Source: Rhodobacteraceae bacterium S2214
GTDB taxonomy: Bacteria; Pseudomonadota; Alphaproteobacteria; Rhodobacterales; Rhodobacteraceae
Direction: 5' to 3'
Assembly: GCA_025141675.1 (NCBI GenBank)
Contig: CP081161.1
Span: 3,449,501 to 3,513,500 of the forward strand
DNA: 64,000 nucleotides
Shown here: positions 8,274 to 18,115 of the stretch, piece after piece
How the letters are laid out: every line of letters starts with the position of its first letter
How positions within the stretch are numbered: position 1 is the stretch's first letter
Made by a program: the position numbers and the translations under genes
The notes under the pieces: model-generated
Databases searched by the model: none
What the model was told of the DNA's origin: nothing
The model's input: only the letters and a program-made list of their open reading frames with translations

Positions 8274-8375
8274 AATGATGCTCCTAAATGTAAAAGTAAG
8301 ATTCATCTTGCCCTAAGGGTAACTGTTCGAAAATATAGAAACAGTACGAAATTTTGCGTCTAGGGCTACGAAAAA

Positions 8376-9224
8376 ATGCACAGCGAAAATTGGGATGATC
8401 TCCGCTATGTTCTGTGTGTTGTGGAAACCGGCTCCGTTTTGCAGGCGGCCAAACATCTTGGCGTCAATCATGCCACGGTCCTGCGTCACGTGGCGGCGTT
8501 TGAAGAGCGGCACAACGTGACCATTTTTGAGCGGACCTCACAAGGGTACCGACTGCGATCCGAAAGCACCCATATCATCCAAGCGGCACAAGCCGCCGAA
8601 ACGGCGATCCGAGAGGTGGCGCGGCTGGCGGGCGGTGGTCTTCTTCCACGATCGGAAACGATACGCATTACCTCCACTGACACGCTTTGTGCTTATGCCT
8701 TGCCGCAATTCATATCGGCCGCACAGGGACGTGGCCAAAACCGAAAATTCGTTCTATTGAGCAGCAACGCTCATATCGACGTGCTACGTGAACAGGCACA
8801 CATTGTGGTACGCGCGTCTGTGTCCCTTACCGAAGATCTCGTGGGAACTTCCGCCGGCACCCTCGCATTTAAAGCTTATGCAGCTGAAACAGGCGTTAAA
8901 AAATGGCTGAGCCTGTCTGGTCCACTTTCAAGGTCGGTCGCAGGCACTTGGATGGCAAAAAATATAACTGCGGACATGGTTTGTGCAACGGCTGATAGCT
9001 TTTTGACATTGGCAAGTCTTGCCCAACGCGGCCAAGGCATTTCTATCCTTCCAACCTTTGTTGGCGACGCAACGCCGGGCTTGCAAGAAATAACTGACGC
9101 GATCCCAGCGCTCACCGTCCCCGTATGGGTGGCGCACCATGTCGAAGCAAAAATGACGCACGAACTGAATGAGGTTCGATCAAATTTGACGGCGTTTCTA
9201 GAAGAATACTTGAAGAGAGCCTGA
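8376..9224 (+). CDS. LysR-family transcriptional regulator
   Basis: 282 residues. The N-terminal winged helix-turn-helix is clear (WDDLRYVLCVVETGSVLQAA, then HLGVNHATVLRHVAAFEER), followed by a short linker and a degenerate type-2 periplasmic-binding-like effector domain. It is divergent from the two cytochrome genes with a 102-bp shared intergenic region, the classic arrangement for a LysR regulator and its target. Control of the cytochrome pair is therefore likely but not shown. Confidence 0.8.
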   Translation: MHSENWDDLRYVLCVVETGSVLQAAKHLGVNHATVLRHVAAFEERHNVTIFERTSQGYRLRSESTHIIQAAQAAETAIREVARLAGGGLLPRSETIRITSTDTLCAYALPQFISAAQGRGQNRKFVLLSSNAHIDVLREQAHIVVRASVSLTEDLVGTSAGTLAFKAYAAETGVKKWLSLSGPLSRSVAGTWMAKNITADMVCATADSFLTLASLAQRGQGISILPTFVGDATPGLQEITDAIPALTVPVWVAHHVEAKMTHELNEVRSNLTAFLEEYLKRA

Positions 9225-9768
9225 GAACACTGGCTTCGGAATATTGCGGCGTTGGGCCATATAGACCTGCTCAAATTGGAATGTCGGCTATACCAGCAAA
9301 AACGAGGTCACTTTCATCTGCAGCGAAAGTCTGCTTCCCGCCAATACTGTTGAAAAAATCCGTTTTTGGCAAAATCGGTGAAATCTTTGTCCGTACAGCG
9401 CTACCAACGTTTCGAGCCGAGGGGTTCGGCCAAATTGGTCTTCTGCCGCGCATGTGGCAGCTCATAGCGCCGCATGGCAGATCTCACCTGACTTTTCCGT
9501 ATCACGAGTTCTTTCCGAAAAAACACGACATCCGAAATTCGGATTTTTTCAACACAATGCGCCGTTCTACCCTTAGTGCTAGCTCAGTTTGAATTTTTGG
9601 CAGTACATTTGTGCGAAGAACCTAGAACCGTTATTTTTTGGATATATTTCATGCAGTTATATAAATTTGCACCTCCAGACAAATATGTGAACCCTCCTAC
9701 CCAAACGTGTCGAAAGTCACGAGAATTCGGTCCAATTGATGCCGACCAAAGCAATGGGGTATTCTAGG
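9225..9768. other. Intergenic stretch at the left border of the island
   Basis: 544 bp without a gene I can support. Open frames exist but have no ribosome site or protein-like composition. It is A+T-richer than the flanking core genes and contains one terminator-like hairpin (9530-9549). It marks the change from core genes to the accessory island. Confidence 0.4.
9530..9549 (+). terminator. Possible Rho-independent terminator
   Basis: ATCCG/CGGAT stem with AAATT loop, running directly into six T residues. The stem is short. It may end read-through from the LysR gene 300 bp upstream. Confidence 0.4.
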
Positions 9769-10107
9769 ATGAACTTGATAGATTTCGCAAAACAGATGCC
9801 AAAAGACCAATCCGAACAGGAGTTTGTCGATAGTCTGAAGCAGTTGGTTGATCTTGGCGAAATTGAAAACCTGTCGAAAGCAGACCGTGACGCCTTGTTT
9901 GATACAGTTCAGTATCTGACAGATTTCACCCTATTCGTTCGAGAAGCTAAAGGTGAGTTGGGGTCTCACGGGAATGCTCCATACGTTGAGTACAGCGGAC
10001 CATTTATACCGAACGCCCTTACTCGACCTGGCGATGCTCCTCTGGATCTTTCGATCCTGCAAAACTTTGGCGTTGGCGCCGCCGACAAGTATCTGGGATC
10101 GGATTAA
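9769..10107 (+). CDS. Hypothetical protein, unknown function
   Basis: 112 residues if started at the ATG at 9769 (an alternative in-frame ATG lies at 9736). The sequence is soluble, acidic and protein-like (MNLIDFAKQMPKDQSEQEFV at the N-terminus; helical, charged), with no signal peptide or membrane segment and no motif I recognise. It lies alone at the left edge of the island, facing the frameshifted AAA+ gene. It may be a cargo gene or a fragment of a mobile element. Confidence 0.5.
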   Translation: MNLIDFAKQMPKDQSEQEFVDSLKQLVDLGEIENLSKADRDALFDTVQYLTDFTLFVREAKGELGSHGNAPYVEYSGPFIPNALTRPGDAPLDLSILQNFGVGAADKYLGSD

Positions 10108-10140
10108 AGCCTGTACCGGCAGCCCCGCCAAACCAACGGA

Positions 10141-10248
10141 TCATCCGCAGCAGCCTTTGGCGGTCCGAAATGGTTCTTCCGCTAATAAGCTTCCCTCCTG
10201 TAAGACGACGATCTCGCCGCCAAGATATGGAATAGCTTGATAATCCAT
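10141..10248 (-). CDS. Small 35-residue open frame downstream of the AAA+ gene
   Basis: An ATG at 10248 lies 9 nt after the stop of the AAA+ ATPase frame, on the same strand, and gives MDYQAIPYLGGEIVVLQEGS plus 15 residues before a TGA. The composition is protein-like and a second gene in the operon is plausible, but the abrupt end suggests a truncated remnant. No counterpart follows the second AAA+ copy. Confidence 0.3.
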   Translation of the reverse strand: MDYQAIPYLGGEIVVLQEGSLLAEEPFRTAKGCCG

Positions 10249-10257
10249 GGCGCAATC

Positions 10258-11351
10258 TCAATTCAACAGCGGCTTGTAGGCCAGCGTTTGTGCGCGATCA
10301 AGCATGCGGCTCACCGTGCGAAGACTCAGCCCAGCGTTTATGATTGCGCCACAATCAAAGACATCCATTAAGGCGGCCATCGCGGGAGCTGGTAAGTCGC
10401 GGCGCGCGCCTTCGGTTTCCGCAAATTGCCGCAGCTGATCAGTCGTAAGATCTGGAAGGTCCAGGACCATACAGCGGCTTTGCAGCGGCTCAGGCAAGCC
10501 TTGGCGGCTGTTTGCTGTCATCACCCAGTTCACCCAAGACATATCACATTTGATTTGGAAAAATGGACACTCCCATGTTGCGGCTGTCATACGTTCAAGC
10601 AGCGGCAGCAAGGCGTCGGTCAACGAATGGCGTGTACCTTTGCTGAAATGGATATCACCTGACTTCTCGACCTCATCAACGATGACAAGCGGTCCGCCGT
10701 GGCGCTCCCGCAGGATTGTCTGCAGCAGCTTACCCGGTGTCGCGTTGGACCAGCCGCGCTGGGACCCGACGATGGCAAACGTAGCGGGTTCGCCCGTCGC
10801 GTCGATCATGGTCGTTGGCACGGCAAGGTGATGCGCAAGACGGCGAGCCCAATGGCTCTTGCCGATCCCAGGGGAACCGACCAAAACGAGCGGAGTGAAC
10901 CGCAGCCCCCCGCGCGCCGATGCGCGTAGTCCGTGCCACACAGCTTCAGTTGCCGGTGCCATCCACGGCATCTCGGCGTGCAACGCCGCCGCGATCTCGT
11001 CAGCCTCGTGCTCGGTGGCGACGCGGGCCACTGGCAACCCGCCTCTGAGGGATGTAAGCCTGACACGGTTCTCATCGCTGAGGTGATGCATGCCGGTTGA
11101 AAGCTGCTTGCGTTCGAGGAACCATATATAGCGCGACGCCTGATGCGCCCCATGTCCGCATCACCGACCAGGTCGTACGGATACACCCGGTCCTCCTCTG
11201 CCATGCGGCCCGTCTCAATCTCAATCCGCTGCGCCCTTTTGCGGGTCGACTCTAGGAACGTCTTTAACCGAGCCTCCACATCGCGCATTTTGGGCAGGTC
11301 GTCGTAGAACGTCAGATTATGAAACGGGATCTTGGATTGAGATTGGGTCAT
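10258..11351 (-). pseudogene. Lon-type AAA+ ATPase, copy 1, frameshifted
   Basis: Homologous along its whole length to the intact gene at 16691-17785. The first part (ATG 11351, AAAGG upstream; MTQSQSKIPFHNLTFYDDLP) is in one frame to about 11128. The rest (Walker A GSPGIGKS, Walker B VIVDEVEK, sensor MTAN, Arg finger LPEPLQSR) is in another. The shift lies near the ATATAT run at about 11122-11130, just after RIRRRAIY. After correction, WFLERKQLSTGMHHL continues the alignment to the paralogue. The downstream part could still be made from an internal ATG (11091). The Lon protease domain is absent, as in copy 2. Confidence 0.75.
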
Positions 11352-11432
11352 GTCGGTTGCCTTTCAAAACGCGGGGAATACTCAGCGCAGCTGCCCGACC
11401 GTCAATGACTGTCGAGGCAATGGGATATGAAA

Positions 11433-11444
11433 GGTTCCGGAACC
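11433..11444. promoter_or_regulatory. 12-bp perfect palindrome in leader of AAA+ copy 1 (putative operator)
   Basis: GGTTCCGGAACC, 82 bp upstream of the AAA+ start. The second copy has GGCTCCGGAGCC at the equivalent place (83 bp): the two differences compensate each other so symmetry is kept. Flanks ATATGAAA and a TTAGG-AACAAAGTG stretch are also shared. This is the pattern expected of a conserved protein-binding site. Confidence 0.6.
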
Positions 11445-11560
11445 TGTGAGAACATTTAGGAAACAAAGTGGCGGGTATGACAAGCCCGAGATCGTTCGGG
11501 CTATTTGGGATATCGCATCCTGACAACCAAACGCCCAATATCTTATAAGATACTGAAATT

Positions 11561-11593
11561 AAATAAAAACCACCGACCTTACAAAGGTCGATG
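11561..11593 (-). terminator. Terminator-like hairpin in leader of AAA+ copy 1
   Basis: On the reverse strand a 10-bp stem (11584-11593 with 11571-11580, one mismatch, 3-nt loop) is followed by a T-rich run (11561-11569). The second AAA+ leader has a hairpin of different sequence but the same form at the same place. It lies upstream of the AAA+ start, so it is either an attenuator or the end of a short leader RNA. Confidence 0.55.
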
Positions 11594-11595
11594 GA

Positions 11596-11633
11596 CATTT
11601 GATCTGTGCGGAGTGGTCAAAAAACACCCCATA
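11596..11633. repeat. 38-bp direct repeat, copy 1
   Basis: Identical over 38 bp to 18032-18069, in the same orientation relative to each AAA+ gene. Homology continues with three mismatches over the next 21 bp. Recombination between the two would remove the IS element, the ORC-like ATPase and its partner. Confidence 0.9.
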
Positions 11634-11634
11634 A

Positions 11635-11695
11635 TGGCCAAGTTATGGGGTGTCCCGCATGTCCACAAGCTGTCGGACACCCCATAACTTGGCCA
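11635..11695. repeat. 21-bp perfect inverted repeat with 19-nt spacer
   Basis: The arms are 11635-11655 and 11675-11695 (core AAGTTATGGGGTGT and its complement). A third, partial copy of the core (ACACCCCATAA, 11624-11634) precedes the left arm and can form an alternative smaller hairpin with it. No T-tract follows, so it is unlikely to be a simple terminator. Multiple inverted copies of one motif look like a recombinase or transposase binding array. Confidence 0.75.
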
Positions 11696-11823
11696 CTCTG
11701 TGAAATCTGCCCCCTTATTTCATTGAGTTTCCACGCACATTCGGCGGCCTGTCCGTCGTCAGAGTTTTTGGAACCAATGGCGGCCTAATCTAAGAGAGAG
11801 TTTGGCTCATCTGGTTTGTTTGA

Positions 11824-12845
11824 TTATGCGGCATGCTGGCGGTGATGCAAGCGCCGCGTTTCGAGCGTCTTTCGTTTGATCCTTTCCCTTTGTTTTAGAA
11901 TGGCTTTGTCACGGCCAAAGTAGACGTCGGCAGGTGTGACGTTGTTGATGCTCTCGTGATAGCGCTGGTGATTGTAGTGTTCGACGAAGGCTTCGATTTG
12001 GCGTTCGAGATCGCCGGGCAAGAAGTAGTTTTCCAGCAAGATGCGGTTCTTGAGGGTTTGGTGCCAGCGTTCGATTTTGCCTTGGGTTTGCGGATGATAC
12101 GGCGCACCGCGCGAGTGCTTCATGCCCTTGTCCTGCAGCCATTCAGCCAGATCACCTGAGACATAACTTGAGCCATTGTCACTCAGTAGCCGTGGCTTGT
12201 GAACGACGTGAACCTGATCGCAGCCGGATGCCTGCAATGCGAGGTCCAGTGTATCCGTCACGTCTTCAGCCCGCATGTTCGTGCAAAGCTTCCATCCCTC
12301 TCGGGACATTGCTGCGCAATACCCTGCCGGGCAGTGGAGACGATGTAGCGGCTGTAATCGTCGAGGACCGTGCTGAGGTAGAACCAGCCCCAGCCCAATA
12401 CCTTGATGTAGGTGAAGTCTGTTTGCCAAAGCTGGTTGATCGCAGTTGTTTTGTCTTTGAACTCGCTGGCTGCCTTGAGCACGATAAATGCAGGGCTGGT
12501 GATCAGATCATGGGCTTTCAGCACGCGATACACCGTGGATTCCGAGACAAAATACCTTTCTTGATCCGTAAGCGACACCGCCAACTCGCGTGGTGACAGC
12601 TCCGTCTCCTTCAGGGCGAAGTCGACAACCTTGCGCTTCACTTCATCGGGCACGCGGTTCCAGACGTGTTGTGGCTTGGGAGATCGATCCTGCAGCCCAG
12701 CTTCGCCACGCTGCAGATACCGGTCGTACCAGCGATAGAATGTGGTCCGGGGGATACCCAGCTTGGCCAATGTCCTGCGGGCCGACAGATGGCTTTCCTC
12801 GACCAAACGGATGATCTCCAACTTCTCTGATGCAGCATACCTCAT
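11824..12845 (-). pseudogene. IS3-family transposase OrfB (DDE integrase), interrupted
   Basis: The N-terminal part carries a HTH-like region and the start of the rve integrase core (LWQTDFTYIKVLGWGWFYLS, first catalytic Asp, then LDDYSRYIV). The rest, in another frame, has the second Asp (LLSDNGSSYVS) and the catalytic Glu (TQGKIERWHQTLKNR). Between DDYSRYIV and WKLCTNMRAED the expected single codon is replaced by 44 nt (12295-12338), a net insertion of 41 bp that shifts the frame. Both halves are otherwise well preserved, so inactivation looks recent. Confidence 0.85.
12295..12338. repeat. Short imperfect-palindromic insertion in transposase OrfB
   Basis: 44 nt in place of one codon, centred on ATTGC-TGC-GCAAT with GGG/CCC further out. 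The size and dyad symmetry resemble REP-like miniature elements, but no second copy is visible in this window. Confidence 0.5.
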
Positions 12846-13207
12846 TCGCGGTCGTCCCCATCCCCGAACATGCTTTTTTTGAGCAAGCGGAGTTCGAGCG
12901 TTTGCTCCGCAACCACCTCTTTGAGGTCCTTTGCCTCGCGACGCAGTTCCTTCACCTCGTCAGTATTTGCCGCACGCGCCGTGTCCCCAGCCAGCCGCTT
13001 CTTACCGGCCTCCATGAAGTCCTTCGACCACTTGTAATAGATGCCCTGCGATATCCCTTCGCGACGGCACAGCTCAGCAATGCTGTCCTCGCCGCGCAGG
13101 CCATCCAGCACGATCCTGATCTTCTCTTCGGATGAATAATGCTTGCGCGTGGCGCGTTTGATGTCTTTGACGATCTTCTCGCCGAGTGTCTTCGTTGTCT
13201 TTCTCAT
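12842..13207 (-). CDS. IS3-family transposase OrfA
   Basis: 121 residues from the ATG at 13207 (MRKTTKTLGEKIV). A helix-turn-helix of the IS3/IS911 OrfA type (YSSEEKIRIVLDGLRGEDSI, then CRREGISQGIYYKWSKDF) is followed by a C-terminal leucine-zipper-like helix (EVKELRREAKDLKEVVAEQ). OrfA stop and OrfB start overlap (ATGA). A run of seven A on the coding strand (plus-strand T at 12874-12880) lies where a -1 shift joins OrfA to OrfB, as in other IS3 elements that make an OrfAB fusion. Confidence 0.85.
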   Translation of the reverse strand: MRKTTKTLGEKIVKDIKRATRKHYSSEEKIRIVLDGLRGEDSIAELCRREGISQGIYYKWSKDFMEAGKKRLAGDTARAANTDEVKELRREAKDLKEVVAEQTLELRLLKKSMFGDGDDRE

Positions 13208-13317
13208 CGTCCACTCCTCAGTAGTTACGATGAGCAACAAACCCTCTCTTAGCAAACCACCCTATTTGACCCCATAAGAGCTGACGTCAGACAAAAGGAC
13301 CGCTAATCGTAACGGGT

Positions 13318-15897
13318 ATGCGCGGGTGCGGCAAAACCATGCTGCTTCGCTCTCTGCAGTTTCATGCTCATGCTCGGAAAGGCGCAAAGGAAACTGATCA
13401 AGCTGTTTTGAAGCGGCTCGAAGAGGATGGCTTTGTAGGTTTTTTTGTTTCAGCCCAAGTCTTAGTGGACAGTGTTAGTGGTGAACCCGTGGCCAACGAA
13501 CAGCTTTTCGCTCGGTTGACGGTGGCATATGCACTTGAAGCGGCAAGAGCACTGGCCCACTTGAAGGATATTGACGAGGAGCTGGTCACGCAGCGAAGTC
13601 CCGCAATACTTGGTGAGGTTCTCGAGCAGCTCCTAACCAACTTTGAAATTGAGGCGCAAACCACCTCGATTGAACGTTTTGAGCACACTCTTATTCGCAA
13701 GTTTTTGGAAGTCAGCAGGGCCGACAGCCAATGTACGCTTGAGATACATCCATCTAAGGCCTTTCCTGCGCTGGCTAAGGCTATCGTAGACTGCTCCAAG
13801 CTGTGGAGGTCTTCACGCATATTGTTTCTTTTGGACGATGTTTCAACGCGATACCTTGAACCGAACAAAATTGAAGAAATTCTGTCAGCTATTATTTTCC
13901 AAACCACGGATCAAACAGTTGATTGTTCCTTCAAGCTAACCTCAGAAACCCAGACCATATTTCTTTCCCTGAAATCTTTAGGGGGAGTTGAGCAAGCCGC
14001 TCATTGGCGTGATTTTGAGACGTTTGATTTGGGGGCAGAAGTTTATAAGCGATTGAAAGGTGGAGGTGGAAAAGACTTTATTGGCAAGATTCTTGCTCAA
14101 CGGTCCGACTACTTCACGGGACACCCGGAAGAACCACCTGCCGCCATCTTGGGCGATAAGACCCTAAAGAGTATCGCTGAAACAATTTGCCAATCCTCGC
14201 CAACATCTGCGAGCCGAAAATCTGTTTATTCAGGAATCTCTGCTCTCAAGGCAGTTTGCGTTGGAGACATTGGAAGCGTGATCCAAATTTACGAGAGCAT
14301 CCTTCAGAAAGGTGAAACCAAGTTCCCGGTTTCTGCCCGAGCGCAGTCTGAGGTTTTTCAAGATCACTGCACACAGCATCTTTATGTCTTGGACAGGCGC
14401 GGGAGTGAGCTGAAGAATGCAGCTAAGTCCTTTGCTTCCGCATCCAACCGTGCAATGCGAGATTCCTATAAGAAGGGCGAAACAAGGGGTCTACGCCAGT
14501 ACACTTCCATTTATGTGCGTGTCTCAGCAGAGGATGAAAGGGCCCAAAGCGATCATCTCAGAGAGCTTGTCGACGCGGGTGTGTTCGTATTCCATGGTGG
14601 CACGCCAAGAAGCAAAACCCACGATTCTGATCCCGTGCAGCAGTTTCAACTTGTTTTTAGAAAGATCTATGGCCTCGCCGATTTTATGCCGTTGGCAGAT
14701 AGAGATCGCTTTGAGCTATCGGGACAAGCGCTGACAGAATGGCTTACAAAACCGGAAGATGGTGCGGATTTGCTATGCCGAAATCTGGGGAAGATTTCCG
14801 ATGAGGAGATAGAGCATGATGAAGTTATTGATGTTGATCCAGGAGCAGAAAATGGCGAAGCAGCAGCTCAAACTTCCTTCCAGTTCCATGACCCTAAAAT
14901 ATCTGCCAATGACCATTTCCTAGAAAAAAGCTTACCACTTCCGAGCATCAAAGAGCTTTCCAAGGACGACATCTCCAAAATACTAAATGTATCGTACACT
15001 ACCGCGCTTGGTTTTGAAGATTGTTGTGAAATATCCGTAGCGCGCTGCATGAAATTGCTAGATCCACAGCAAGTTCGATGTATTAGATACACTGTGCCTG
15101 GGCGGAGTGAGCAGATTTTGGGCTCACTAAAGGGGCGCGGGAAAGACATCCGTGTCTATGAAGAGACTGACAGCCATTTCTTTCAAGATCTGGATACGCA
15201 CGAGAACATAGTCGTCGATATTTCCGGGCTTTCCAAATCTCTTATTTTCAGGACTGTTTCTGAAGCCTTGCGGACGCGAGGCAAAGTATTGGTTTGCTAT
15301 ACCGAACCGGATGCTACTGGCCCAAACGACCAATCATTACAGAATGTTCTCAAGGCCCAAGAAATGCTTGAACAGGTTTCGGTAGTTGAGGAGTTGAGGA
15401 AGATCGTGGGCAGTGAGTTTCCGCCCTACAGCAATCAATCGGTTGAAAGCATTGAATCAGATGCCACTAGAGCGAAAACCATGCTGGCTTTCTCGTCACC
15501 ATCACACGAACGGATCGTGCATCTGGTGACCGATCAAAACTATAATCACGTCGACGTTATTACAAATTCTGGTTCCGATGCACGATCTAGGATTGCTGCG
15601 ATGGTCGCTCATGTTGCTGTACGAGAAGCGGAAACTCACGAAGTCATCGAACGTGATATTTTTGACCTATCAGTAATACTTGAAGCAATTGAGAATTCGT
15701 ACCGTCGCAAGTACTTTCAAGGGGGTATGAATTTCGAAATCGGCCTGACAGGCGGAAAGCTTTCGACCCTCGCCAGTGCTGAATTTTGCTCAATGTATCG
15801 CGCCAACAATGTTTGGTACGTCCGACCCAACGGGTTTGACACGGACAAGTTTTCCACCGGGGCAAAAGAAACTCGGTTCTTCGAGATCTCAGTTTAG
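13318..15897 (+). CDS. ORC/Cdc6-like AAA+ ATPase with CARF-like C-terminal half, 5'-truncated
   Basis: 859 residues from the first ATG. Protein-like sequence continues upstream in frame to about 13285 (GPLIVTG before the ATG), so the real P-loop is GMRGCGKT and its first Gly precedes the only ATG; the N-terminus is lost. Walker B is RILFLLDDVS (about 167-176) and a sensor-like strand SFKLTSETQ is at about 204-212. A variable acidic linker (about 495-520) leads to a second half with VVDISGLSKSLIF (632-644), KVLVCYTEP (656-664) and FEIGLTGGKLSTLAS (806-820), which resembles Rossmann/CARF-type sensor folds with their TGG-K loop. Base composition is A+T-richer than neighbours. It is paired with the membrane protein gene 36 bp downstream. 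I propose a defence sensor; homology calls are from pattern, not a search. Confidence 0.65.
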   Translation: MRGCGKTMLLRSLQFHAHARKGAKETDQAVLKRLEEDGFVGFFVSAQVLVDSVSGEPVANEQLFARLTVAYALEAARALAHLKDIDEELVTQRSPAILGEVLEQLLTNFEIEAQTTSIERFEHTLIRKFLEVSRADSQCTLEIHPSKAFPALAKAIVDCSKLWRSSRILFLLDDVSTRYLEPNKIEEILSAIIFQTTDQTVDCSFKLTSETQTIFLSLKSLGGVEQAAHWRDFETFDLGAEVYKRLKGGGGKDFIGKILAQRSDYFTGHPEEPPAAILGDKTLKSIAETICQSSPTSASRKSVYSGISALKAVCVGDIGSVIQIYESILQKGETKFPVSARAQSEVFQDHCTQHLYVLDRRGSELKNAAKSFASASNRAMRDSYKKGETRGLRQYTSIYVRVSAEDERAQSDHLRELVDAGVFVFHGGTPRSKTHDSDPVQQFQLVFRKIYGLADFMPLADRDRFELSGQALTEWLTKPEDGADLLCRNLGKISDEEIEHDEVIDVDPGAENGEAAAQTSFQFHDPKISANDHFLEKSLPLPSIKELSKDDISKILNVSYTTALGFEDCCEISVARCMKLLDPQQVRCIRYTVPGRSEQILGSLKGRGKDIRVYEETDSHFFQDLDTHENIVVDISGLSKSLIFRTVSEALRTRGKVLVCYTEPDATGPNDQSLQNVLKAQEMLEQVSVVEELRKIVGSEFPPYSNQSVESIESDATRAKTMLAFSSPSHERIVHLVTDQNYNHVDVITNSGSDARSRIAAMVAHVAVREAETHEVIERDIFDLSVILEAIENSYRRKYFQGGMNFEIGLTGGKLSTLASAEFCSMYRANNVWYVRPNGFDTDKFSTGAKETRFFEISV

Positions 15898-15933
15898 CGC
15901 AAGTAACTACATACATGGAAAAGGCAGGAGTGA

Positions 15934-16428
15934 ATGAAGCAGTCACCATATCTTAAAGATGATGCCCGGTTAGCAGATGTGATAGCGGCCATTCAGGCGA
16001 TGAGTATCTACAAATTTTACAAACTTGATTTTGCGGGATGGGCAGACAGAATTTCTGGCGACCCAAGTCAAGGAGAGCATTGGCGCCAGGTATTTGTAGA
16101 ACATCCCGAGTTTTTCCGGCTTGACACTGCACGGAAAAAGGCTTCGCTTGTGGCACGCCGACAGCACCCGAAAAACTACGATGTAGACACTCGTAGATAT
16201 ATCCAGAAAGTCGACTTCCCTGCCTTGAGTATTGAGCAAAAACAGCGAATTTCCAGAAGCCCTCTTGGGCAAGACGAGATTGCATCTCTGATACACACTG
16301 CCGTCGAGCTTCACTCCAGGGCTTTGGAGCAATCAAAAGATCAACGATGGTGGATACCAGTTCTTACAGCGCTGATAGGTGCAATATCTGGTATAGCAGG
16401 CACTCTTATTGGTGTAATTGTCACCTAA
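15934..16428 (+). CDS. Small protein with C-terminal membrane helix, partner of the ORC-like ATPase
   Basis: 164 residues, with AGGAG about 7 nt upstream of the ATG. A soluble N-terminal domain (about 1-110; core YKFYKLDFAGWADRISGD, then WRQVFVEHPEFFRLD) leads to a helical stretch rich in charges and one C-terminal transmembrane segment (about 143-164: WIPVLTALIGAISGIAGTLI). No catalytic motif is recognisable. The N-terminal part looks like a compact helical DNA- or protein-binding fold. Its tight linkage to the ATPase suggests a sensor/effector pair in which this protein damages or gates the inner membrane. That is inference. Confidence 0.65.
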   Translation: MKQSPYLKDDARLADVIAAIQAMSIYKFYKLDFAGWADRISGDPSQGEHWRQVFVEHPEFFRLDTARKKASLVARRQHPKNYDVDTRRYIQKVDFPALSIEQKQRISRSPLGQDEIASLIHTAVELHSRALEQSKDQRWWIPVLTALIGAISGIAGTLIGVIVT

Positions 16429-16690
16429 ATTCGATCACAACGGTGTTCCCACTCGAATGTGAAAATATGTTTTGACCGAATTTAATTTCAGCAACCACAC
16501 AATCTAACAAGCGGAACAATTGGCATATCGACTACCCAAGTGAGAGCGGCATGGCTTGGGCATTTTTTTGGGTGGGGGCCTCTACTGGGGACTACAGAAT
16601 GAGTGCTGTTTTGAAATATGTGGACAACATCCGCATCGCCAAAGGTAACTGTCGCCGATGCGAGGTGCAGCAACTGTCCGTGTTCTGGCC
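16429..16690. other. Intergenic stretch between the defence-like pair and AAA+ copy 2
   Basis: 262 bp. It contains a terminator for the upstream pair and a 32-residue plus-strand frame (16599-16697, MSAVLKYVDNIRIAKGNCRR then CEVQQLSVFWPH) that I do not support as a gene. Confidence 0.4.
16535..16569 (+). terminator. Rho-independent terminator after the ATPase/membrane-protein pair
   Basis: CCCAAG (16535-16540) pairs with CTTGGG (16555-16560), followed by CA and seven T. It lies 107 bp after the stop of the membrane-protein gene and would end the two-gene transcript. Confidence 0.55.
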
Positions 16691-17785
16691 TCACTGAAGG
16701 ACTGGCCTAGAAATCATCGCCTCAGCCCGATCCAGCATTCTGGATACTGTGCGAAGGCTTAGGGTGTGCTCAGCCCAAACTTCATGATCAAGCACTGCGT
16801 CTAACGCCGAAAGGCTGGGCTCCAAGAGGCCGCGCCTTTGACCTTCTGTTAGAGCAAAGTCACGCAACTGAGACCGCGTCAGGTCTGGAAGGTCAAGAAC
16901 CACGCAACGGCTTTGCAACGGCTCCGGCAAACCCTTGCGGCTGTTCGCGGTCAGCACCCAGTTGGCCCAGGACATAACAAAGCGGATCTGAAAAAAGGGA
17001 CACTCCCAACCCTCCGCAGTCATGCGCTCCAACAACGGAAGCAGAGCATCAGTTAGTGTATGACGCGACCCGTTGACTGCGTTGACGTCTCCAGTCTTTT
17101 CGACTTCGTCCACGATCACCAGAGGGCCGGCGTGGCGTTCCCGCAGCACGGTCTGCATGAGTTTGCCTGGTGCGGCGCTGCCCCATCCGCGCTGAGCTCC
17201 AACCAGTGAAAACGTCGCCGGTTCACCGGTCGCCTCGATTTTGGTTGTCGGCACCGCAAGGTGATGCGCTAACCGCCGTGCCCAGAAGCTTTTGCCGATG
17301 CCGGGTGACCCAACCAAGACCAACGGATTGAAACGTAAACCAGGTAGCCCCTCACGCGCGGATCGCCTGAGACCATGCCAGACTTCTTCGGTCGCGGGCG
17401 CCATCCAAGGCATTTCTTCATGCAAGGCCGCTGCGATCTCGTCAGCTTTGTGTTCGGTGTGGATGTTGGTCACTGAGATACCATCCCGCAACGCATTCAA
17501 TTGGGTTTTCGCCGCGTCTGGCAAATGGCTCATGCCGGACAGGCTTTGCATTCGCTCTAAAAATCGGATCGCACGGCGCTTGGTCATTGTACGATCATTG
17601 TCGTTGATCAATTGATGCCATAGAACCGGATCATTGCCGTGATCAACGCTTCCCGCAGCCATCAACTTCCGGTTCCTTAACTCACGTAGAGTTTCCTTGA
17701 GGCGATCATCCACCTCTCTCATGCGAGGCAGCTCATCGATAAATTTAAGCGAGCAGAATGGGATCGGTGTTTTCGTGAGGGTCAT
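16691..17785 (-). CDS. Lon-type AAA+ ATPase without protease domain, copy 2 (intact)
   Basis: 364 residues from the ATG at 17785, chosen for AAAGGA upstream and for the match of MTLTKTPIPF to the start of copy 1. Walker A GSPGIGKS, Walker B VIVDEVEK, sensor-1 VLTANS, Arg-finger region LPEPLQSRC and a C-terminal small helical domain follow the Lon AAA+ order, but the Ser-Lys protease domain is missing. An N-terminal helical region of about 130 residues is specific to this family. It could be a DNA-remodelling or transposition-helper ATPase of a mobile element. The substrate is unknown. The neighbouring genes give no protease partner. Confidence 0.75.
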   Translation of the reverse strand: MTLTKTPIPFCSLKFIDELPRMREVDDRLKETLRELRNRKLMAAGSVDHGNDPVLWHQLINDNDRTMTKRRAIRFLERMQSLSGMSHLPDAAKTQLNALRDGISVTNIHTEHKADEIAAALHEEMPWMAPATEEVWHGLRRSAREGLPGLRFNPLVLVGSPGIGKSFWARRLAHHLAVPTTKIEATGEPATFSLVGAQRGWGSAAPGKLMQTVLRERHAGPLVIVDEVEKTGDVNAVNGSRHTLTDALLPLLERMTAEGWECPFFQIRFVMSWANWVLTANSRKGLPEPLQSRCVVLDLPDLTRSQLRDFALTEGQRRGLLEPSLSALDAVLDHEVWAEHTLSLRTVSRMLDRAEAMISRPVLQ

Positions 17786-17990: not shown

Positions 17991-18030
17991 ATAAATAAAT
18001 TAAAACCACCGGCAGGAAAACTGCCAGTGG
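17991..18030 (-). terminator. Terminator-like hairpin in leader of AAA+ copy 2
   Basis: On the reverse strand 18021-18030 pairs with 18006-18015 (10 bp, one mismatch, loop of 5 nt), followed by a T-rich run (17991-18005). Form and place match 11561-11593 while the stem sequence differs, indicating selection for structure. Confidence 0.55.
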
Positions 18031-18031
18031 T

Positions 18032-18069
18032 CATTTGATCTGTGCGGAGTGGTCAAAAAACACCCCATA
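18032..18069. repeat. 38-bp direct repeat, copy 2
   Basis: Identical to 11596-11633. The block continues to about 18090 and ends 26 bp before the nrdJ stop, so it marks the right border of the island. Confidence 0.9.
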
Positions 18070-18115
18070 GTGGTCAAGTTATGCGGTGTCTAACAACAAC
18101 CCTCGATACCCTAGC

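Follow-up and report, generated by a model that had tools for sequence, protein, structure and literature searches.

Do an ATPase gene and a small membrane-protein gene that lie side by side in Rhodobacteraceae bacterium S2214 form a working defence unit? The locus is part of a stretch of 64,000 nucleotides (contig CP081161.1, positions 3,449,501 to 3,513,500), referred to here as the window and numbered from its first letter. The original prediction was an intact two-gene sensor/effector module. We found instead that the large gene is a remnant next to an insertion sequence (IS) element, with its Zn ribbon, kinase and first AAA strand missing. The window thus probably holds a two-gene unit that has been disrupted, apparently not long ago, and that in its intact form would comprise a CARF-kinase sensor and a membrane output.

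The large open reading frame (ORF; 13318-15897, plus strand) encodes 859 amino acids (aa). Its product matched the PADLOC profile CARF6--CARF_STK_AAA (PDLC01925) with 1029 bits, residues 1-858 aligning with positions 342-1185 of the 1187-position profile. The predicted ORC/Cdc6-like AAA+ identity was confirmed by a match to the Pfam model PF24389 (ORC-CDC6-like; E 4.8e-13, residues 2-390; 13321..14487). The Walker B motif LFLLDDVS was found at 13822-13845 on the plus strand. The P-loop GMRGCGKT belongs to the ORF only in part: its first G lies outside because the ATG of the ORF encodes the Met within the motif, so that RGCGKT is retained and the first P-loop Gly and strand 1 fall outside. The motifs VVDISGLSK, KVLVCYTEP and GLTGGKLSTLAS are all present in the C-terminal half, whose CARF-like character was borne out by the PADLOC profile and by structural comparison of a predicted model with a Rossmann fold. 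The tandem CARF (14986..15831, plus strand) consists of two Rossmann units, with VDISGLSK in the first and LTGGK in the second, and the second unit aligned with Cam1 (8t64) at 2.3 A over 125 residues.

The reading homologous to relatives starts eight codons before the ATG, at the end of the IS element, with the residual codons KGPLIVTG (13294..13317, plus strand). These residues also stand before the P-loop of the intact relative P0003 (...SSKGPLIVTGMRGCGKT), which covers positions 2-1185 of the 1187 in the PADLOC profile. No ATG, GTG or TTG lies between the ATG of the ORF and the in-frame stop inside the IS element, which occupies the place expected for ~345 N-terminal residues with the Zn ribbon, the kinase and the first strand of the AAA domain. 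Zn ribbon and kinase are absent upstream, and P0003, searched against the five-contig assembly, matched once, with residues 330-1205, so that the lost half did not turn up at another site. The 859-aa ORF is a fragment with AAA and tandem CARF that lacks its own start codon, and in this strain the kinase that would do the sensing is very probably no longer functional.

The abutting element (11750..13293, minus strand) is of IS3 type: Pfam identified HTH_Tnp_1 in orfA and rve in orfB, which is split over two frames, and the element has inverted ends of the TG...CA form (TGTC...GACA). Its ends were fixed by two other complete copies (1544 bp) elsewhere in the genome. The copies are near-identical; their 100% identity is a rounded value, and one copy (L043) shows two differences within the terminal 40 bases. 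No target-site duplication was obvious by eye at the window copy or at the L043 and L044 copies, so the 5' part of the large gene may have been lost either with the insertion or through a later deletion. A fragment of 209 bp from this end of the element (98%; G000:C1:3439334-3439542) was found ~10 kb upstream of the window, as a further IS-driven rearrangement nearby.

The 859-aa product might still be functional, as a kinase-less AAA-CARF regulator, and its 2.5-kb frame open without stops speaks for this, as do database forms without a kinase (P0048, P0080 and P0023) that begin 37-72 residues before the P-loop. These forms, however, retain the whole AAA start, unlike the window copy, in which the ATG inside the P-loop entails loss of the first Gly and strand 1 and no in-frame start codon is found upstream. 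Moreover, the near-identical IS copies suggest a recent event, which is enough to explain the open frame. A functional regulator is therefore extremely unlikely, and the locus illustrates the decay of a defence gene next to an IS element.

Relatives of both proteins were counted at E<=1e-3, and the best 120 were listed in each family. The large protein has 967 database relatives, which marks it as more than a chance reading frame, and those among the best 120 are mostly ~1206-1230 aa long. Motifs were counted in homologues 2-120, 112 of which are at least 1150 aa. Among these 112 long homologues, a Zn-ribbon-like cysteine pattern near the start was present in 106, the kinase motif H.D.H..N in 111 and the DLG-like motif [AVI][IVL]D[LF]G in all 112; relatives carry PF00069 or kinase motifs. 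GMRGCGKT was found in 118 of the 120 listed homologues, the exceptions being the window copy and P0024, on another contig, both of which start at the Met of that motif. A family with a Zn ribbon, an S/T/Y kinase, AAA+ and CARF was described by Makarova 2014 (PMC4012209), and GMRGCGKT fits the Arg in the P-loop given in the available text of that description, indicating that the large family is already known. A functional test of this family was not found in the available portions of the open literature searched, including PMC12839542, PMC11090510 and PMC4012209. The ATPase is rare: it was matched in 3/292 genomes of the order draw and in 1/394 of the family draw, namely in its own genome (G179, discussed below, was not matched there). 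The class draw gave matches in 6/385 genomes, of which only its own and G383 went beyond short, weak matches.

Intact units with the full ATPase gene are present in relatives. On a Loktanella salsilacus plasmid (L048; intact pair at 439558-443689 of NZ_CP072995.1), a metallophosphoesterase gene and the full ATPase gene are followed by the small gene, which begins 16 bp after the ATPase gene, and by a C5 methyltransferase gene and an endonuclease gene annotated as NaeI family. In genome G179 (L056), the full ATPase gene is followed by the small gene at a distance of 18 bp, and by a C5 methyltransferase gene and the gene for an NgoMIV-type endonuclease (PF09015). The two methyltransferases (regions 13505-15372 of L048 and 13174-15068 of L056) are 62% identical, and the two endonucleases were not alignable by BLASTP. 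Since NaeI- and NgoMIV-type enzymes both cut GCCGGC, one endonuclease may have replaced the other while the specificity stayed the same. By eye, the L056 cassette (8300-16285) lies between conjugation-like genes, which would fit a conjugative element with a hotspot for insertions. No match to the cytosine methyltransferase partner was found in the window strain.

Of the five ATPase loci whose surroundings could be seen, two have no small gene. In G237, which belongs to the same genus as the window strain, the full ATPase (L057; 43% identical to the window protein) has a divergent C5 methyltransferase gene upstream. In G383 (L058, 6104-10301), kinase-AAA (857 aa) and CARF6 (338 aa) are encoded by two separate genes next to each other, suggesting that CARF is a module; the 182-aa protein that follows has no Pfam or PADLOC match. 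The small copies of the three adjacent pairs (window, L048 and L056) fall into a single 19-row clade of a 99-row tree with support 99/100, in a bootstrap that is not fully settled. The simplest reading of these sequences would be one pairing event followed by joint inheritance. For four further ATPase/small-protein pairs (P0003/P0125, P0005/P0127, P0007/P0128 and P0008/P0131), the two members come from database contigs of equal length, which is no more than an indirect hint.

The small gene of the window (15934-16428, plus strand) is intact. It begins 36 bp after the large ORF, on the same strand, with the ribosome-binding site AGGAG at 15926-15930, and could be expressed alone. Its 164-aa product has one hydrophobic C-terminal segment (residues 146-164; 16369..16425, plus strand), for which the best 19-residue Kyte-Doolittle mean was 2.1 and which contains glycines 149, 153, 156 and 160. 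As in the original prediction, the product is thus a putative single-pass membrane protein with a C-terminal transmembrane helix. Residues ~10-74 (15961..16155, plus strand) are winged-helix-like. The protein has 863 database relatives, so it too is more than a chance reading frame, and the gene was matched in 3/394 genomes of the family draw. In an alignment of 82 close relatives (the window protein and 81 of the best 120, without more distant members such as those of L037 and L040), 27 columns are invariant. The average majority residue was 85% in region 11-40, 82% in region 61-80 and 46% in the transmembrane segment; W139-W140 reached 100%, and G153, G156 and G160 are at least 90% conserved. 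No Pfam match above cut-off was found (best 16.3 bits vs 25), nor any PADLOC match at E<=1 or NCBIfam match at E<=0.01. Several members are labelled N-carbamoyl-L-amino acid amidohydrolase in databases, for which the predicted fold gives no support. The family, without a name or with a doubtful one, merits attention more than the large family does.

These features can be combined into a mechanism for the intact unit of the relatives. The tandem CARF would bind a signal that arises during infection, either a nucleotide or a modified nucleotide. ORC-type AAA domains, by oligomerising, would pass the ligand state on to the kinase, and the kinase would phosphorylate a target. The small protein, tail-anchored in the inner membrane, would be the local target or output. 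Its conserved cytosolic winged-helix domain may dock on the sensor, here the kinase/AAA part and elsewhere other defence complexes.

Such a unit could also be a bona fide CRISPR type III or cyclic-oligonucleotide-based antiphage signalling system (CBASS) effector that responds to a cyclic oligonucleotide. A search for the Cas10 palm model PF22335 gave two weak matches in G383 (27.4 and 24.1 bits) and none in G179 and G237, where the ATPase genes are intact; in the window strain the matches are weak too, and CBASS cyclases were outside the search. In L048, L056 and L057, those neighbours that carry an annotation or were tested are type II restriction-modification genes, not cas genes. A type III or CBASS effector is therefore very unlikely.

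A CARF-kinase sensor paired with a membrane output remains the preferred interpretation, and several observations weigh against it. In the window strain, PF22335 gave a best match of 27.2 bits (cut-off 27) and another under the cut-off, both in GGDEF/GGEEF proteins; the model also matches in E. coli. No other messenger synthase was found in a search that used the Cas10 palm model only. The full ATPase of L057 has no small gene beside it, so the ATPase probably works without it. The winged helix of the small protein is, in the predicted model, a weak and common match. The recency of the break is judged from the near-identical IS copies and the open frame, not from dating. Finally, the small gene occurs mostly without the ATPase. 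The ATPase was near 3 of 43 small copies (38 named loci plus the window, L048, L056, L060 and L061), which falls short of a dedicated linkage, and tblastn for an ATPase relative at the 38 named loci, from Pseudomonadota, Bacteroidota, Nitrospirota and Bryobacteraceae, found none. Of these 38 loci, 33 had 2 kb or more of upstream flank; L060 and L061 had flanks of 1.5 kb and L049 and L050 were left out of tblastn, so the absence is not firm at every locus. The expectation that homologues of the two genes would be neighbours elsewhere thus largely failed, and the direct tie comes from one clade only.

What accompanies the small gene in the absence of the ATPase bears on another explanation, namely that it is an independent gene, for instance one for a regulator anchored in the membrane, which is carried along in islands and is mechanistically unconnected with the ATPase and with defence. 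As would suit such a regulator, winged helices commonly bind DNA, and the lack of the ATPase at all 38 loci also fits. Non-defence neighbours were found as well: AdoHcyase (L019), a sodium symporter and an adhesin-type protein (L028), OmpA (L036), a Tle1-like phospholipase (L010) and, downstream, GGDEF (L018). For nine of the neighbours tested, Pfam gave no match at the thresholds applied. The neighbours tested were 32 of 552 ORFs from L001-L041, picked by nearness and size, and are therefore examples rather than a census. Against independence, an hsdR-type cluster was found in 8 of the 38 loci, and HSDR_N (Pfam) was present in 6/6 members tested. Only ~0.14 such loci were expected, given 102 HSDR_N rows from a 366-Mb sample of 100 genomes in the window's phylum (58/100 with a match) and 490,372 bases of loci in total; the loci are not fully independent (several are from Flavobacteriaceae), and some come from phyla other than that of the background sample. 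In L014 and L029 the small gene is closely spaced after hsdR. A DrmMI-like methylase gene overlaps it in L037, and a DISARM locus is present at L049; L037 and L049 are near relatives in the tree. Further neighbours include a PDC-S02 nuclease (L027), a reverse transcriptase (L004) and FRG (L009). In two different families, proteins with RelA/SpoT domains (538 aa in L008 and 385 aa in L018), possibly toxin-like alarmone synthetases, are encoded upstream of the small gene.

We consider an independent gene somewhat unlikely and a defence connection of the small-gene/ATPase locus likely. The defence part of the original prediction thus probably holds, and its large protein is a remnant. Whether the small protein is the founder of an undescribed family of tail-anchored winged-helix proteins that extends across phyla, and whether this family gives many sensors of unrelated defence systems (CARF-kinase ATPases, type I restriction, DISARM and RelA/SpoT-type enzymes) one interchangeable membrane output or anchor in common, is more speculative, and we regard it as doubtful. 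If it were true, systems thought to be DNA-only would gain a membrane arm.

The surroundings match the predicted island in part. The IS element is there, and the remnant is flanked by two AAA+ paralogues on the minus strand (10409-11033 and 16842-17475). This duplication is real, and with 71-75% DNA identity (72% over 636 columns) it is old as judged from sequence. The left paralogue seems to be split over two frames. A 98-nt element (11557-11654 and 17993-18090; 84% identity) lies before each paralogue, so that gene and element look like a repeated gene-plus-operator module; the left element holds the palindrome ACACCCCATA...TATGGGGTGT. An inverted repeat at 11630-11700 (26-nt arms, 92% complementary, 19 nt between), partly inside the left element, could represent either a regulatory site or a small mobile unit. 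The predicted terminator can be read by eye at 16535-16569 (plus strand) as a 6-bp stem, a 14-nt loop and seven T's. It did not appear in a scan limited to loops of 3-8 nt, in which terminator-like sites were no commoner than in shuffles (5 vs a mean of 4.3).

Compared with known systems, the window copy resembles the Zn ribbon-kinase-AAA-CARF family in its C-terminal CARF and, with the P-loop cut at its first Gly, in an AAA region with a P-loop Arg, and differs in lacking the Zn ribbon, the kinase and the first AAA strand. The available text of PMC4012209 names CARF plus wHTH, where our predicted model has another Rossmann unit, the second, and does not mention a linked small membrane gene, which is present beside the window remnant. 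The defence kinases PD-T4-6 and MAD6 resemble the kinase half of P0003 (up to 40 and 28 bits, respectively), but their models match only this part, which the window copy lacks. Can1 (6sce), the tandem-CARF nuclease of type III CRISPR, differs in that no nuclease domain was seen in the window protein, which has an AAA region (and, in relatives, a kinase) and no convincing Cas10 in its genome. The CARF-membrane effector Cam1, on which the second CARF unit superposes, also offers an analogy in its membrane output. In Cam1, CARF and the transmembrane segment are on one chain; the system described here consists of two genes, and its small protein has a winged helix, not a CARF.
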